DNA of 64,000 nt, from NCBI GenBank assembly GCA_000690595.2, contig JHUT02000001.1, positions 372,001 through 436,000 of the forward strand, given 5' to 3'. This DNA comes from Natrinema mahii. Its GTDB lineage: Archaea; Halobacteriota; Halobacteria; Halobacteriales; Natrialbaceae. Position numbers and translations under genes: made by a program. Shown here one piece after another: positions 10,339-56,364 of this stretch (position 1 is the stretch's first letter; every line of letters begins with the position of its first letter). The notes under the pieces were generated by a model. The model saw only the letters and a program-made list of their open reading frames with translations, did not search any database and had not been told where the DNA came from.

Positions 10339-10361
10339 GCGTTTTCCGACTCTGAAAACGC
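10339..10361. promoter_or_regulatory. Palindromic operator candidate (site 1)
   Basis: An inverted repeat with half-sites GCGTTTTC and GAAAACGC around CGACTCT sits 10 bases ahead of the TATA box at 10371. A near-identical core occurs at 53410-53429 ahead of a stress-protein gene. The location directly upstream of TATA suits an activator site. Confidence 0.45.
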
Positions 10362-10370
10362 ACTGGCGGC

Positions 10371-10378
10371 TATTTTAT
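10371..10378 (+). promoter_or_regulatory. TATA box candidate upstream of nreA
   Basis: TATTTTAT lies in the 307-base gap 10225-10531. It predicts a transcript starting near 10398 and a leader of about 135 bases before nreA. A weaker ATTCAAA lies near 10500 and could give a leaderless nreA message instead. Confidence 0.4.
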
Positions 10379-10400
10379 GTCCCCGTGTGATGGTTGGGAT

Positions 10401-10433
10401 GAGGTTCGGTTACTCGACGCCCGACCGAACCTC
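10401..10433 (+). ncRNA. Hairpin in the nreA leader or small RNA candidate
   Basis: GAGGTTCGGT (10401-10410) and ACCGAACCTC (10424-10433) form a perfect 10-bp stem with a 13-base loop. It falls at the 5' end of the transcript predicted from the TATA box at 10371. It may be a leader structure, a small RNA or an operator; nothing in the sequence decides. Confidence 0.35.
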
Positions 10434-10531
10434 TGCCTCTGACATTCTGTCCGGACTCGCCTCCGAGAGCGGTGCCGATCGACGGCGGGAACGACGAACA
10501 TTCAAACCGGTGCCGTTCCTACGTGGACTGA

Positions 10532-11833
10532 ATGCGCCTCGACGACTACATCGAGGAGTTAGAGCCCGACGAGGAGGCCGAGCGCCGCCGCCTCGCGAAG
10601 GAGAAATCCTACGCGATCACGGACCACTTGGCGGAGTTCGAACGGAAGTTCGACGACGCCCTCAGTGGCGAGACGCTCGTCGGCTCGACCGCGCCCTCGA
10701 TCTTCGTCGGACGGTCGAACTACCCCGACATCCCCGTCGGACTGCTCTCGCCGGTCGGCAACGAGAGCGATGCCGAGGAGTACGTCACCGACGGCGACTG
10801 GTACCGGCAGGGGTACGCGATCGACGACGTCCTTCAGCGCCGGACCGGCCTCCTGAACTCCAACAAGCGGGCCAACGTCGACTCGCCGTCGATCGCGAGT
10901 CGCCTGACGCCGTCGGTCCACGACACGTGGGACGGCTTCGTCGGCGTCCAGCGGGAGGTCGCCATCGCCGACCGCCCGGTCGATCTCGAGATCGGGCTGG
11001 ACGACACCCCCGATCTCGGACTGGACGCGGGGACGGACGTGGCGACGCCGCGGGGTCCCCGGGCGAACGCCCGCAACGCGGACCTCACCGAGAACCCCCA
11101 CGTCCCGCGGGCGGTCAAGAAGACCTTAGAGGACGACGACTGGCAGGCCGAGGGGGCGATGACCTACCTCTATCGCCGGGGCTTCGACGTCTACGAGATC
11201 AACTCGATCCTCTCGGCGGGCGCGCTCGGGCAGACGAAACAGCGCCGACTCGTCCCGACCCGGTGGTCGATCACGGCCGTCGACGACACCGTCGGGAAGT
11301 TCCTCCGCGGGCGCATCCGGAACGCGCCCAGCATCGACGAGGTACAGGTCTGGGCCAACGAGTACGTCGGCAACCGCTACTGGATCGTCCTCGCGCCGGG
11401 CAACTGGGAGTTCGAACTCGTCGAGATGAAAGCGCCGGGCAGCATCTGGAACCCGAACCCCGAGGACGACCTCTGGATGGCCAGCGCCTCGGAAGGGTAC
11501 GAGGGCCGCTCGAGCTACGTCGAGGAGACCGCCGGTGCCTACTACGCGGCCCGACTGGGCGTGCTGGAGTACCTCGAGTCGATCGGCCGCCAGGCGAAGT
11601 GTCTCGTCTTGCGGGAGGTGAGCGACGACTACTGGGCCCCCGTCGGCGTCTGGCAGGTCCGCGAGAGCGTCCGTAACGCCTTCGAGGGCCAGTACGGCGA
11701 GGCCGAGACCTTCCACGACGCGGTCTCGGAGGTCGCGACGCAGTTGCCGGTGTCGCTCGCCCGGTTGCGCCGCAAATCCGAACTCGCGGCCGGGCTCCAG
11801 TCGAACCTGAGCGCCTTCGCGAGCCGGAACTGA
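10532..11833 (+). CDS. nreA: Archaeal DNA repair protein NreA
   Basis: A 433-residue member of the archaeal Nre family. Family blocks visible are the APSIFVGRSNYPDIPVGLL region (about 51-69), PHVPRAVKKTLEDDDW, FLRGRIRNAPSIDEV and YYAARLGVLEYLES. The last residues contain QSNLSAF (423-429), a PCNA-interacting (PIP) motif of the QxxLxxF type, as known for Nre proteins. In Haloferax volcanii Nre proteins contribute to resistance to DNA-damaging agents; the biochemical activity is unknown. I see no N-terminal cysteine cluster. It is transcribed alone. Confidence 0.9.
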   Translation: MRLDDYIEELEPDEEAERRRLAKEKSYAITDHLAEFERKFDDALSGETLVGSTAPSIFVGRSNYPDIPVGLLSPVGNESDAEEYVTDGDWYRQGYAIDDVLQRRTGLLNSNKRANVDSPSIASRLTPSVHDTWDGFVGVQREVAIADRPVDLEIGLDDTPDLGLDAGTDVATPRGPRANARNADLTENPHVPRAVKKTLEDDDWQAEGAMTYLYRRGFDVYEINSILSAGALGQTKQRRLVPTRWSITAVDDTVGKFLRGRIRNAPSIDEVQVWANEYVGNRYWIVLAPGNWEFELVEMKAPGSIWNPNPEDDLWMASASEGYEGRSSYVEETAGAYYAARLGVLEYLESIGRQAKCLVLREVSDDYWAPVGVWQVRESVRNAFEGQYGEAETFHDAVSEVATQLPVSLARLRRKSELAAGLQSNLSAFASRN

Positions 11834-52955: not shown

Positions 52956-53339
52956 TTAGAGGTCCGGGATCGGCACGACGACGACCGGCCGGTCCGCATC
53001 CGCAAGCAATCCCCGCGTGGTCGAGCCGAGGTCGCGCGTCGCATCGGGATCGCCGCTGTGAACCCCGACGACGAGTTCGTCGGCCGCCGAGGCTGTAGCC
53101 GCGTCGCGGAGTTCCGCGACTGGGTCCCCGGTCCGGACCTCGGTCTCGACCTCACCCACCGTCGCGAGCCGAACAGGGGCGACGTTCAACGCCTCCTCGC
53201 AGTCCCGGCGCGCCGTCGGGTCGTCGGCCGGCGCGACGGCGACCACGGTGACGGCGTCGTCGCCGCTTGCCCGCCCCTCGAGGTAGTCACAGATCGCTGC
53301 GGTGGTGTGGACCGAGTCGGTCCCGACGAGATACTGCAT
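52956..53339 (-). CDS. Universal-stress-like protein
   Basis: A 127-residue alpha/beta protein starting MQYLVGTDSVHTTAAICDYL, with VTVVAVAP and a closing RPVVVVPIPDL strand typical of the Usp fold. The ATP-binding glycine signature is reduced (GVHSGDPDATRDLGSTTRGL), so nucleotide binding is doubtful. The start at 53339 is set by the first strand. A palindrome at 53410-53429 shared with the nreA region lies upstream. Confidence 0.78.
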   Translation of the reverse strand: MQYLVGTDSVHTTAAICDYLEGRASGDDAVTVVAVAPADDPTARRDCEEALNVAPVRLATVGEVETEVRTGDPVAELRDAATASAADELVVGVHSGDPDATRDLGSTTRGLLADADRPVVVVPIPDL

Positions 53340-53409
53340 GGTCGACAGCAGGGCGGCAGTCGACACAAACGTATGGGCTCGAGCGTCGGAAACGCGTCGG
53401 GCGAGCGGA

Positions 53410-53429
53410 TTTTCCGACTCGGAAAACGC
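53410..53429. promoter_or_regulatory. Palindromic operator candidate (site 2)
   Basis: TTTTCCGACTCGGAAAACGC is almost identical to the core at 10339-10361 and palindromic (TTTTCCGA/TCGGAAAA). It lies about 70 bases upstream of the minus-strand stress-protein start. Confidence 0.45.
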
Positions 53430-53460
53430 TCTCGGATCACTAATAGGAACGGGCCGATAG

Positions 53461-53519
53461 CGGGAAACGGGGGACGTGATAGGCAATCCCCGCACGCCTG
53501 CGTGGTCCCCCGCTTCCCC
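53461..53519 (-). terminator. Structured G/C-rich hairpin, terminator or small RNA
   Basis: CGGGAAACGGGGGAC (53461-53475) pairs with GTCCCCCGCTTCCCCG (53505-53520) apart from one A:C step, and an inner CACGC/GCGTG pair lies in the loop. It is downstream of the minus-strand regulator/membrane-protein pair that ends at 53647. The 307-base gap 53340-53646 contains this, site 2 and nothing else I can support. Confidence 0.4.
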
Positions 53520-53646
53520 GCATCCGATCATCCCACGGCCGCGACGCCTGCCCCACACGTCCCCGCGATCCCCCCTCGCGCGGAGACGTGCGGCGTCGGC
53601 CGTTCCCCTGAGCGTTGGTCCCTGCCGCTTCGGCCCGCCCGACAAC

Positions 53647-53958
53647 TCAATGCCGACCGTACAACGAGTACGTGATCGCGACCAGCCCGAGCAAGCGACT
53701 CACGTTCTCGAGCAGTGCGATGACGACCTGATCGGGATCGACCAGCGTCGTCACGAAGACGTTGAGCAGGAAGGGAAACACCGTCAACAGCAAGAGCCCG
53801 ATGGCCAGATAGAGCATCGACTGCGCGTCGTTGCGCCGGTACCCCCGGTACGCCTGATACGCGATAACCGCGCCGAACAACGCGACGAGGAAGAGACTCG
53901 CGACGGTCAACAGTTCGAACAGCGTCGCCTCGTCGATCCGGACGGCGTGCCGACTCAT
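53647..53958 (-). CDS. Three-helix membrane protein (DUF7521-like)
   Basis: A 103-residue membrane protein with helices at about 10-32 (LFELLTVASLFLVALFGAVI), 42-65 and 75-98, resembling haloarchaeal proteins labelled DUF7521. The ATG at 53956-53958 overlaps the stop of the upstream HTH gene (ATGA), so the two are translationally coupled. Such HTH-membrane pairs are common in haloarchaea, and the membrane protein may sense a signal for the regulator; this is inference. Confidence 0.8.
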   Translation of the reverse strand: MSRHAVRIDEATLFELLTVASLFLVALFGAVIAYQAYRGYRRNDAQSMLYLAIGLLLLTVFPFLLNVFVTTLVDPDQVVIALLENVSRLLGLVAITYSLYGRH

Positions 53959-54326
53959 CGCATCCCCTCCCACATCCGGGTGAACTTGTCGGCGACGTCT
54001 TCCTCGCGATACGTCAACTCGAGTTCGAACGATCCGTCCTCCAAGGACAGTTCGAGCTGGTCGAGGTTCGCACTATAGACGCTGTAGTGGTTGCCATCGG
54101 GTGCGAGTTCGGTCTCCTCGGTAACGAGGCGACACTCCTCGAGGCGATCGAGTCGTCGATAGATCGTCGGGAGGGAGGCATCACACCGTTCGCTCAGGGT
54201 ACTAGCAGACATGGGTTCGACGCTCGTGTGGGTGAGGATGTCCCGTGCGTACTCGTCGTCGAGAACCGAAAGCAGGGTCGACAGGTCAGTTTCCTCACTC
54301 ACTGGTATGGCAGTTCCTTCCGCCAT
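53955..54326 (-). CDS. Winged-helix (ArsR-like) transcriptional regulator
   Basis: A 123-residue regulator with a winged helix at about 12-80: LSVLDDEYARDILTHTSVEP, then MSASTLSERCDASLPTIYRR as helix-turn-helix and VTEETELAPDGNHYSVYSA as wing. The C-terminus (ELTYREEDVADKFTRMWEGM) is a dimerisation-like tail. It is coupled to the membrane protein downstream. An inverted repeat directly upstream (54346-54365) may be its own operator. Confidence 0.85.
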   Translation of the reverse strand: MAEGTAIPVSEETDLSTLLSVLDDEYARDILTHTSVEPMSASTLSERCDASLPTIYRRLDRLEECRLVTEETELAPDGNHYSVYSANLDQLELSLEDGSFELELTYREEDVADKFTRMWEGMR

Positions 54327-54345: not shown

Positions 54346-54365
54346 GTTTTTCTGGGTGAGAAAAC
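54346..54365. promoter_or_regulatory. Inverted repeat ahead of the HTH gene
   Basis: GTTTTTCT-GGGTG-AGAAAAC is an inverted repeat 20-40 bases before the HTH start, where the TATA region should be. The position suits autorepression. The remaining gap to 54669 (343 bases in all) is AT-rich and holds the kinase promoter but no supported gene. Confidence 0.4.
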
Positions 54366-54627
54366 ACTCCATCGTCGAACCCTCGCAGGGACCGGGGCAT
54401 ACGGGAGCCGAACGGATCGGGACGGGGTGGCAACACGACTGAGCAATCGCCCTCGAGGCCGAAACGGGGATCGGATGCCAACTGGCAGTCAGCACCCGTG
54501 TCTGGCATTCATATAGGTCTCCCGACAATACGCCAGATACGTAATATTTCCTACCAAACCTATTATCTATGTATTTGTCAGTATATTTCTGTAATTATTT
54601 CAGGATTCTTGCGCAACCTAGGGAAAA

Positions 54628-54635: not shown

Positions 54636-54669
54636 GGTGCGGATCGTAACAGCTTGTAAAAACAGATTA

Positions 54670-56364
54670 ATGAGTCTGCTAAATTACACAACTGCAATAT
54701 TATTGTTATACTTGAGCGCTCTCCCTGCACTGTACAGCGCCTATACAGTATACGATAAGCGACGGAAACCGGCAATTCAATGGTTTATCGTCTTCATGAT
54801 CCTCGCGGCCGCATGGGCGTTCATCTACGCCACGATGAATCTAGTCACATCTGTCGAACTGACGTACGCGATCGCGAACGTGTTTTGGGCGGTCGTGACC
54901 GCGACTGGTGGGGCGTTCTTTCTCTTCGCCTACGAGTTCGCGTACAAGCAGCCGCTATCGAACAAGACTGCCGTCCTTTTTTTCGTGCCTGCGATCGTCC
55001 TCTTTGCGTTTAGTTGGAGTAATCCGGGCGATCTCGTCTACACTGCCGAGTACACCGTTGGTGACAACGGCGTCCTCCAAGTCGGGTTCCCACAGGGAAT
55101 CCTCTTCGTTAGTGCCGTCCAAGGGTACGGGTATCTGATGACGATCGCGAGTACTGCGCTTTTCTTCGCGGAATCTATCCACTCGAGCGGGAAGCACCGC
55201 CGACGGGCGGCGACGCTTACGCTCTTTTTTATGGGCGTTCTGGCCGCGACGACGCTAACCATCGTCGATTATCTTCCGCCGTACTACGATGGAACGTCGC
55301 TGTTGTACGGTTTCGCGGGCATCTACTTCGCCCACTCCGTGAACCGACACGGGTTTATGGAGTTCACGCCCGTCGCTCGAGACCAGGCGTTCGATGCGAT
55401 TAATGAAGCAGTCTTCATTGTTAACTCCGAACGGGAAATCATCGACGGGAACGATACTGCTGCCGAAACGTTCGATGTGGACCTGAACTCACGGGAACGT
55501 ATCGGAGACGTGCTGCCGACCGACGCTGATACTGGCGAAATTACGGAGTTGTTCTCCCGGACGGAGTTCGAGGAACGCAAGTACTACACAACCCGGACAC
55601 AGCCGTTTGCGTACGGTCGCGGGTTGGCCGGTGAACTCATCGTCGTCGGCGAGATCACGGAGCTCAAAGAACGAGAAAAAGAACTCGAACAGATCAAGGA
55701 CGTTCTACTCAGGTTCTTTCGGCACGATATCCGTACCTCGATGCAAATCATTCTCGGTCAGTCGGAAAGCCTTCAGAAGGATCTCCCGGACGAAAATAAA
55801 ACCGATTTGACCAACATCGTGAACACGTCCGAAGATGTCGTGAACAAAGCTCACAAGATACGACTCATTGACACTATCATCGGTGAAGACGAGACGGTCG
55901 TTGCCAACCTTCCGAGTGTTATCGAAGACGGCATACGGAAAGCCGACGTTCCCCCGGAGACAGCTATCGACGTTTCGATCGACGATGTCAACGTTCAGTG
56001 TCATTCGAAATTCGCCTTCGCGGTGGAGGAGTTGATCGAGAACGCGGTCGAACACCGCCGCCGGGACGAGCAGATTACTGTGACGCTTCGGACCGAAATG
56101 GCGGACGACTCCGTCGCGTTGTTCGTCGAAGATAACGGGAGCGGCATCCCGGAAAACGAACTCAACGTACTGAGACAGGAGGGGGAAACCCAACTGAGCC
56201 ATCTCAGCGGGATCGGACTCTGGATCGTGAAGTATCTGACCGAAAAGGCAGACGGCGTTTTCGAGTGCAGAAACCAGGGCGATGGGGGAGCGCAGATTCT
56301 GATTACCCTTCCCGTTTCCGCCGAGTCCGAGACGGAGCCAGCCGAGACCGCTTCGGACAGATAG
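54670..56364 (+). CDS. Membrane sensor histidine kinase (7TM-PAS-HATPase)
   Basis: A 564-residue kinase. Residues 1-230 hold seven membrane helices of the 7TM histidine-kinase N-terminal type, 235-335 a PAS-like domain (AFDAINEAVFIVNSEREIID), then a phospho-acceptor helix FRHDIRTSMQIILGQSESL with H352, and the ATPase with EELIENAVEH, VEDNGSGIPE and GIGLWIVKYL. It autophosphorylates and passes phosphate to a response regulator, none of which is encoded nearby. Codons rich in A/T (TTA, ATA, AAT) differ from the neighbours. The ATG at 54670 is preferred over the GTG at 54637 on promoter spacing. Confidence 0.87.
   Translation: MSLLNYTTAILLLYLSALPALYSAYTVYDKRRKPAIQWFIVFMILAAAWAFIYATMNLVTSVELTYAIANVFWAVVTATGGAFFLFAYEFAYKQPLSNKTAVLFFVPAIVLFAFSWSNPGDLVYTAEYTVGDNGVLQVGFPQGILFVSAVQGYGYLMTIASTALFFAESIHSSGKHRRRAATLTLFFMGVLAATTLTIVDYLPPYYDGTSLLYGFAGIYFAHSVNRHGFMEFTPVARDQAFDAINEAVFIVNSEREIIDGNDTAAETFDVDLNSRERIGDVLPTDADTGEITELFSRTEFEERKYYTTRTQPFAYGRGLAGELIVVGEITELKEREKELEQIKDVLLRFFRHDIRTSMQIILGQSESLQKDLPDENKTDLTNIVNTSEDVVNKAHKIRLIDTIIGEDETVVANLPSVIEDGIRKADVPPETAIDVSIDDVNVQCHSKFAFAVEELIENAVEHRRRDEQITVTLRTEMADDSVALFVEDNGSGIPENELNVLRQEGETQLSHLSGIGLWIVKYLTEKADGVFECRNQGDGGAQILITLPVSAESETEPAETASDR

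Follow-up and report, generated by a model that had tools for sequence, protein, structure and literature searches.

To our knowledge, regulator, operator, seed and target are all defined for few archaeal small RNAs, and in bacteria the redundant small RNAs of Qrr-type families converge on one regulator. As described in the parts of the reports at hand, sRNA162 of Methanosarcina mazei, which is processed from a longer RNA, masks the ribosome binding site of a second cistron encoding a transcription factor (PMC3510493), sRNA132 of Haloferax volcanii has a positive effect on phosphate transporter transcripts and heads a phosphate regulon (PMC6560208), and hvo_1211s of H. volcanii is an RNA under RosR control (PMC13286277). 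Within the accessible parts of the open-licence literature on RosR (including PMC5892119, PMC12482152 and PMC13286277) and on DUF7521, no report of a small RNA acting on rosR was found.

The window analysed here is the whole stretch of 64,000 nucleotides of Natrinema mahii DNA, and the features discussed below are collected in Table 1. We propose that one HTH regulator serves three promoters, two of them for small RNAs, and that one of these RNAs, A, represses rosR translation by antisense pairing, a reading to which we assign a probability of roughly two in three. The palindrome CGTTTTC-N7-GAAAACG would serve as operator for a small winged-helix (HTH_20) protein, self-regulated and co-encoded with a DUF7521 protein, and would act from a position about 10 bp 5' of the TATA box at the promoters of the HTH-DUF7521 operon, of element A and of element B. 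An operator placed just upstream of the BRE/TATA suggests that the regulator activates; this sign, together with transcription, binding by the HTH protein and RNA-RNA pairing, is what we infer. RNA A would consist of a short hairpin and, 3' of it, a tail, (G)UGCCUCUGACA, that pairs with the 5' end of rosR mRNA (AUGUCAGAGGCAC) across its start codon, which should block RosR translation, and RNA B would be a longer, C-rich RNA.

Set against the excerpted accounts of the described systems, A resembles sRNA162 (PMC3510493) as an archaeal RNA with a single-stranded region that is predicted to pair with the translation start of a transcription-factor mRNA. Unlike sRNA162, it would be a short hairpin with a tail and would act on a start codon, in an mRNA that probably lacks a leader, and it has a recognisable operator and a likely regulator. 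With sRNA132, for which a regulon is described, A shares an intergenic position, a haloarchaeal host and a promoter of its own (predicted in the case of A), but judged by the abstract the two have no palindrome, seed or target in common (PMC6560208). The hvo_1211s RNA is likewise a haloarchaeal regulatory RNA tied to RosR, with the direction reversed: there RosR acts on the RNA, whereas A would act on rosR (PMC13286277).

Table 1. Features of the window, followed by two related elements outside it; positions are those of the window unless a contig or locus is named.
Feature	Position	Strand	Remarks
Palindrome, promoter A (GCGTTTTCCGACTCTGAAAACGC; imperfect, 23 bp)	10339..10361	.	Score 41/42; kept 5' of A in relatives
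TATA-like box, element A (TATTTTAT)	10371..10378	+	In 57/74 A elements, heptamer start is 10 bp past the 21-bp palindrome
Hairpin, element A (GAGGTTCGGT...ACCGAACCTC)	10401..10433	+	Pairing kept while sequence changes; predicted RNA
Invariant tail of A, TGCCTCTGACA	10434..10444	+	Reverse complement of rosR mRNA start (AUGUCAGAGGCA)
nreA, neighbour of A	10532..11833	+	NF041387, DNA repair protein NreA; not a conserved target
Usp-like gene beside site B	52956..53342	-	PF00582; frame as searched, start approximate
Palindrome, promoter B (core TTTTCCGACTCGGAAAA at 53410-53426)	53408..53428	.	Score 39/42
TATA-like box, element B (CACTAATA)	53438..53445	+	Heptamer begins 9 bp after the palindrome in 41/61 B elements
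First hairpin, element B (CGGGGGAC...GTCCCCCG)	53468..53512	+	z -3.95 for 53440-53650
Invariant 3' element of B, GCTTCGGCCC	53627..53636	+	Complementary to element D
DUF7521 protein, second gene of HTH operon	53647..53973	-	PF24365
HTH_20 (ArsR-like) regulator, proposed palindrome binder	53955..54302	-	GTG start inferred from conserved block
Third palindrome, HTH-DUF7521 operon promoter	54346..54366	.	10 bp upstream of TATA-like box CTTTTGATA
Element C	L233:340-511 (own genome C11)		Also at L204, L206, L212, L221, L223, L226, L235
Element D, hyperconserved and RNA-like	G000:C2:222679-222782 (L453, L500)		Hairpin GACGCTTCG..CGAAGCGTC, loop with GGAGG

The sites, their spacing, conservation and co-occurrence, the moderately supported hairpin of A and the complementarity all come from sequence comparison. 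A first-pass annotation had pointed to two intergenic copies of TTTTCCGACTC[T/G]GAAAACGC and held a chance origin to be unlikely. Both copies are present, at 10342-10361 and 53410-53429, and their four strand matches compare with 0.01 expected from 100 dinucleotide shuffles, none of which reached four. A palindrome profile run over the window gave its third-best score (35/42) to a copy absent from that annotation, which lies about 0.9 kb from site B and ahead of the HTH_20-DUF7521 operon. The fourth-best score (33/42, 56256-56276) falls within the open frame 54637-56364, whose product looks by eye like a sensor kinase. Throughout the 3.8-Mb genome of the organism, TTTTCCGACTCGGAAAA with at most one mismatch occurs only at sites A and B, and two to three mismatches add six more sites (L004-L009), all within open frames of at least 150 codons.

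Conservation of the motif in relatives was borne out as well, since a scan of 121 family genomes found the degenerate form TTTTCNGANTCNGAAAA at 25 sites in 22 of them, as against one site for the reversed pattern used as control. Reading of 23 motif loci placed 9 on the nreA side, 12 just past the 3' end of the HTH/DUF7521 pair and 2 elsewhere (L011 and L028), adjoining neither. Among the matches listed in a motif scan of named genomes, which were mostly from unrelated bacteria, the locus of Natrialba aegyptia (L365) has the HTH pair, and those of Halorientalis (L362) and Thaumarchaeota (L361) gave no HTH, DUF7521 or NreA match. The A and B groups have a common layout in which the palindrome is followed after about 10 bp by a TATA-like box and, after a further 22-25 bp or so, by an RNA-like element.

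The first-pass annotation, which noted that both sites lie ahead of genes linked to stress or repair, had proposed one regulator with at least two targets, nreA and the Usp-like gene. One regulator with at least two conserved intergenic targets is indeed supported in outline, and the two positions are correctly described; it is the identity of the targets that does not hold, both genes being neighbours and not conserved downstream features. If the palindrome were a promoter element of nreA and Usp, with the segment between palindrome and nreA merely a 5' leader, one could cite that each gene adjoins a site in the window and that the nreA-side loci make up the 9 of 23 mentioned above. By contrast, the distance from palindrome to nreA ranges from about 166 to 624 bp among the motif loci read, and Usp adjoins only 4 of the 12 B-side loci. 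Element A lies past the HTH-DUF7521 pair, away from nreA, in three genomes (G033, G005 and G001), nreA has a separate conserved block of its own, AACATTCAAA, about 30 bp before its start, and nreA is nearly ubiquitous in the order (142 of 146 genomes), with A distributed more narrowly. On spacing, neighbourhood and phyletic distribution, nreA and Usp are thus unlikely targets, and we regard the promoter-element explanation as very improbable. The neighbours at constant spacing are the TATA-like box and the RNA-like element, and we reassign the targets to the HTH operon, which is probably autoregulated, and to two probable small-RNA genes. As far as sequence comparison goes, the palindrome is real and not a chance motif, but serving the promoters of nreA and Usp is not its primary role. 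The proposed link to stress may survive through rosR instead, the tail of A being antisense to rosR.

The protein that likely binds the palindrome is encoded beside site B. It matches PF12840 (HTH_20) with 36.9 bits against a cut-off of 27, and the copy of the palindrome at its own promoter scores at least 32/42 in 30 of 35 loci, compared with at most 30 in 35 control stretches; these 35 loci are those of at least 3000 bases among 76 B regions, which with 76 A regions form the collected subset of family genomes. When matches to an element-A model were compared with DUF7521 orthologues found in the same 122 family genomes, 81 had both, 29 neither, 11 DUF7521 only and 1 element A only (Fisher p 6e-18, with the relatedness of the genomes ignored). 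The sole A-only genome (G072) is 55% complete, and the 11 DUF7521-only genomes belong to genera g6 and g8, and five of the 11 have diverged A elements (G005, G033, G035, G067 and G095). Within genus g18, one genome (G043) is without both A and DUF7521, and two (G018 and G060) have both. An A-type tail is also found at the B position, adjoining DUF7521, in four genomes (G007, G014, G035 and G067), and in two of these loci (L169 of G067 and L171 of G035) the A-type element seems to bear two tandem seeds (GTGCCTCTGACAATCACCTCTGAC).

Since A occurs where the HTH-DUF7521 operon occurs, the HTH_20 protein is likely to be the self-regulated binder of the palindrome. Binding by this protein is predicted and linkage can have other causes, so that RosR or another general factor might be the binder in its place. 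Such a factor would have to account for a palindrome that tracks the HTH-DUF7521 pair in both presence and position, including the promoter of the operon itself, and rosR was found in 60 of 60 genomes searched (counting a weak paralogue in G160), some of them without palindrome elements. Binding by RosR or a general factor is in our estimate quite unlikely, and the HTH_20 protein is preferred.

Turning to element A itself, the segment between palindrome and nreA does not keep a reading frame among relatives and has its TATA-like box at fixed spacing. Its tail, the 11-mer TGCCTCTGACA, is exact in 69 of 72 pattern-matched A elements; these 72 come from a set of 76, and the four left unmatched by the pattern (G096, G016, G095 and G005) all have the tail on reading. 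Upstream of the tail, the hairpin varies in sequence by genus, with GAGGTTCGG/CCGAACCTC in the genus of the organism and GCGGCC/GGCCG in others. For the own-genus type, 93% of cells are paired in 40 distinct rows of this single hairpin type, a share that sliding the strands against each other lowers to 58% at most. A helix of at least 6 bp is formed in 22 of 27 distinct strands, to which 73 pattern-matched elements out of 81 were collapsed, as opposed to 33% with swapped and 40% with shuffled strands. Covariation is modest, with both sides changed in 2 of 10 pairs and 125 of 500 shuffles reaching the same, and 10380-10531 folds no better than its shuffles (z 0.20). Support for an RNA hairpin is thus moderate. 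In the predicted fold of a 64-nt A fragment, the 3' end of which was assumed, the tail is partly occupied, with a mean unpaired probability of 0.29.

Two other readings of element A were set aside. A C/D or H/ACA guide RNA came to mind from the CTGA and ACA in the tail, and no conserved partner box was found by eye. An opposite-strand micro-ORF beginning with MSEA, at which ATG and GTG alternate, was judged unlikely because the 11-mer shows no synonymous variation and because the window copy has a frame of just 11 codons. A search of Rfam 15 with the window gave no gathering-score match for A or B, only weak hits, and loci representing A (L063), C (L233) and D (L453 and L452) were without a match to these elements. 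The last of these, L452 of G017, contains a leuA-Halobacteria cis-regulatory RNA (RF03001, 70.7 bits, positions 445-497 on the minus strand), unrelated to the palindrome. Taken together, comparison among relatives suggests that element A is probably a small-RNA gene.

The tail points to a target, since its reverse complement is exactly the opening codons (ATGTCAGAGGCA) of the mRNA for RosR, a PadR-type regulator in oxidative stress. Its complement, TGTCAGAGGCA, was sought in 12 genomes and 30 places were read, of which, A apart, two kinds are recurrent: the rosR start and an element between proS and gltB, described below as element C. Two own-genome sites (L231 and L232) looked like chance. 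The target gene was identified as RosR by matches to the hsRosR structures in the PDB (6ez1, E 1.1e-45; 6qfd, E 6.3e-45) and by a PadR match (PF03551). Its start reads ATG TCA GAG GCA C, and the distance of about 25 bp between the ATG and a TTAAATA box upstream makes a leaderless mRNA probable. All 30 family genomes checked have the rosR 13-mer ATGTCAGAGGCAC unchanged. In a second sample of 30 genomes (10 from the family and 20 from the rest of the order) it is present in 24, the exceptions being G006, G208, G144, G123, G131 and G160, where the G160 match is a weak paralogue; the differing starts are ATGTCAGAGTCAC in G208 and G123 and ATGGCAGAGGCCC in G144. Codons 2-4 of rosR (TCA GAG GCA) are unusual synonymous choices kept across the order.

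With -21.0 kcal/mol, the duplex of tail and rosR beats all 1244 control start windows, the best of which reaches -16.3. Duplex energies computed for the whole of A fail to distinguish rosR, with equal or better values in 73 of 96 control windows. Since both the tail and its rosR target are invariant in the family, compensatory change has no variation in which to appear, and since the 5' end of rosR is conserved also in families in which neither A nor C was found, its conservation has another cause.

The 11-mer TGCCTCTGACA might act as DNA instead of as an antisense RNA seed, for instance as a RosR operator common to rosR, A and C, with A repressed by RosR. PadR-type proteins often autoregulate, and an inverted repeat, TGACAT-N10-ATGTCA, surrounds the rosR start, so that part of the conserved start may be operator DNA; this repeat is seen around the start codon in many families (loci L237-L266), possibly as an autoregulatory operator. 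The operator explanation is made less likely by element A itself, where only 51 of 72 copies have T as the base completing TGACAT and the mirrored half-site is missing. At rosR, conservation reaches codons 3-4, for which the upstream half-site has no counterpart, and the tail always comes after a hairpin, downstream of the TATA box and in antisense orientation. Moreover, the published RosR motif of H. salinarum, as given in the accessible part of the source, is TCGnCGACGAGnTCGnCGAC (PMC4287449), to which the palindrome CGTTTTC-N7-GAAAACG is also unlike by eye. We consider a DNA operator unlikely and continue with an antisense tail as the preferred reading.

Element C, the other recurrent place, consists of a hairpin unrelated to that of A (GUGGUGUUCAC..GUGAACACUAC) followed by the same GUGCCUCUGACA tail. 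It is present in 5 of 10 family genomes and in 0 of 19 others having the gltB locus, and its carriers include three genomes without A (G043, G002 and G010). Upstream it has a conserved block of its own (CCTAAT..TTTANCC) and no palindrome. C is probably a second anti-rosR RNA under different control. At three further loci (L201, L213 of G024 and L222 of G013), near position 1500, long inverted repeats that are near-perfect (CTCGCGG..CCGCGAG; GGTCTCAC..GTGAGACC) have TGCCTCTGACA in their loop, and these are possibly further RNAs with the same seed. As in Qrr-type families, several hairpin RNAs (A, C and the seed-in-loop candidates) would then bring one seed to one regulator. Unlike those families, they would be archaeal, with a probably leaderless target and with hairpins and promoters that are unrelated to each other.

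Element B, behind the second palindrome, is apparently a C-rich, noncoding region, a conserved reading frame not having been seen among the relatives compared. The plus strand of 53440-53650 folds better than 200 of 200 shuffles, and B is probably a small-RNA gene. In one locus (L015 of G073), part of B seems to be tandemly duplicated beside an assembly N. The complement of its 3' element occurs at 56 places in 3 genomes, one of which, element D (GACGCTTCGCTTGGAGGGCCGAAGCGTCAGCGGGGACCAATTCAGGGCGGCAAG), is the one clearly conserved intergenic place; a search for D gave matches in 120 of 122 family genomes, several of which have a PadR-type match about 1 kb or less away.

Pairing of B with D (GCTTCGGCCC to GGGCCGAAGC and TTGGTCCC to GGGACCAA) would complement the circuit proposed above and is not an alternative to it. 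It is encouraged by the presence of GCTTCGGCCC in 61 of the 76 collected B regions, with complementarity that runs to 10-14 nt, and by the conservation of D. In the comparison with D, which used 61 of the 76 B regions, the second stretch, TTGGTCCC, recurs as well, but because B is C-rich about 40% of shuffles match its length. D, moreover, has a GCTTCG strand of its own, so that the resemblance of B may be to the hairpin of D, and both RNAs are predicted. We rate the B-D pairing as possible, at slightly less than even odds.

More tentatively still, the elements can be joined into a single picture, in which the HTH_20 protein and its DUF7521 partner would switch on their own operon and two RNAs, one silencing RosR through its start codon and the other binding D, and in which RosR would be the point of convergence of several unrelated RNAs with one seed of 11-12 nt. 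If the proposed circuit is true, it would supply regulator, operator, seed and target together, and would give the uncharacterised HTH_20-DUF7521 gene pair a role. RosR would gain an RNA input, and the pairing of A with rosR would offer a simple test of start-codon masking for leaderless mRNAs, where leader-based regulation is impossible.
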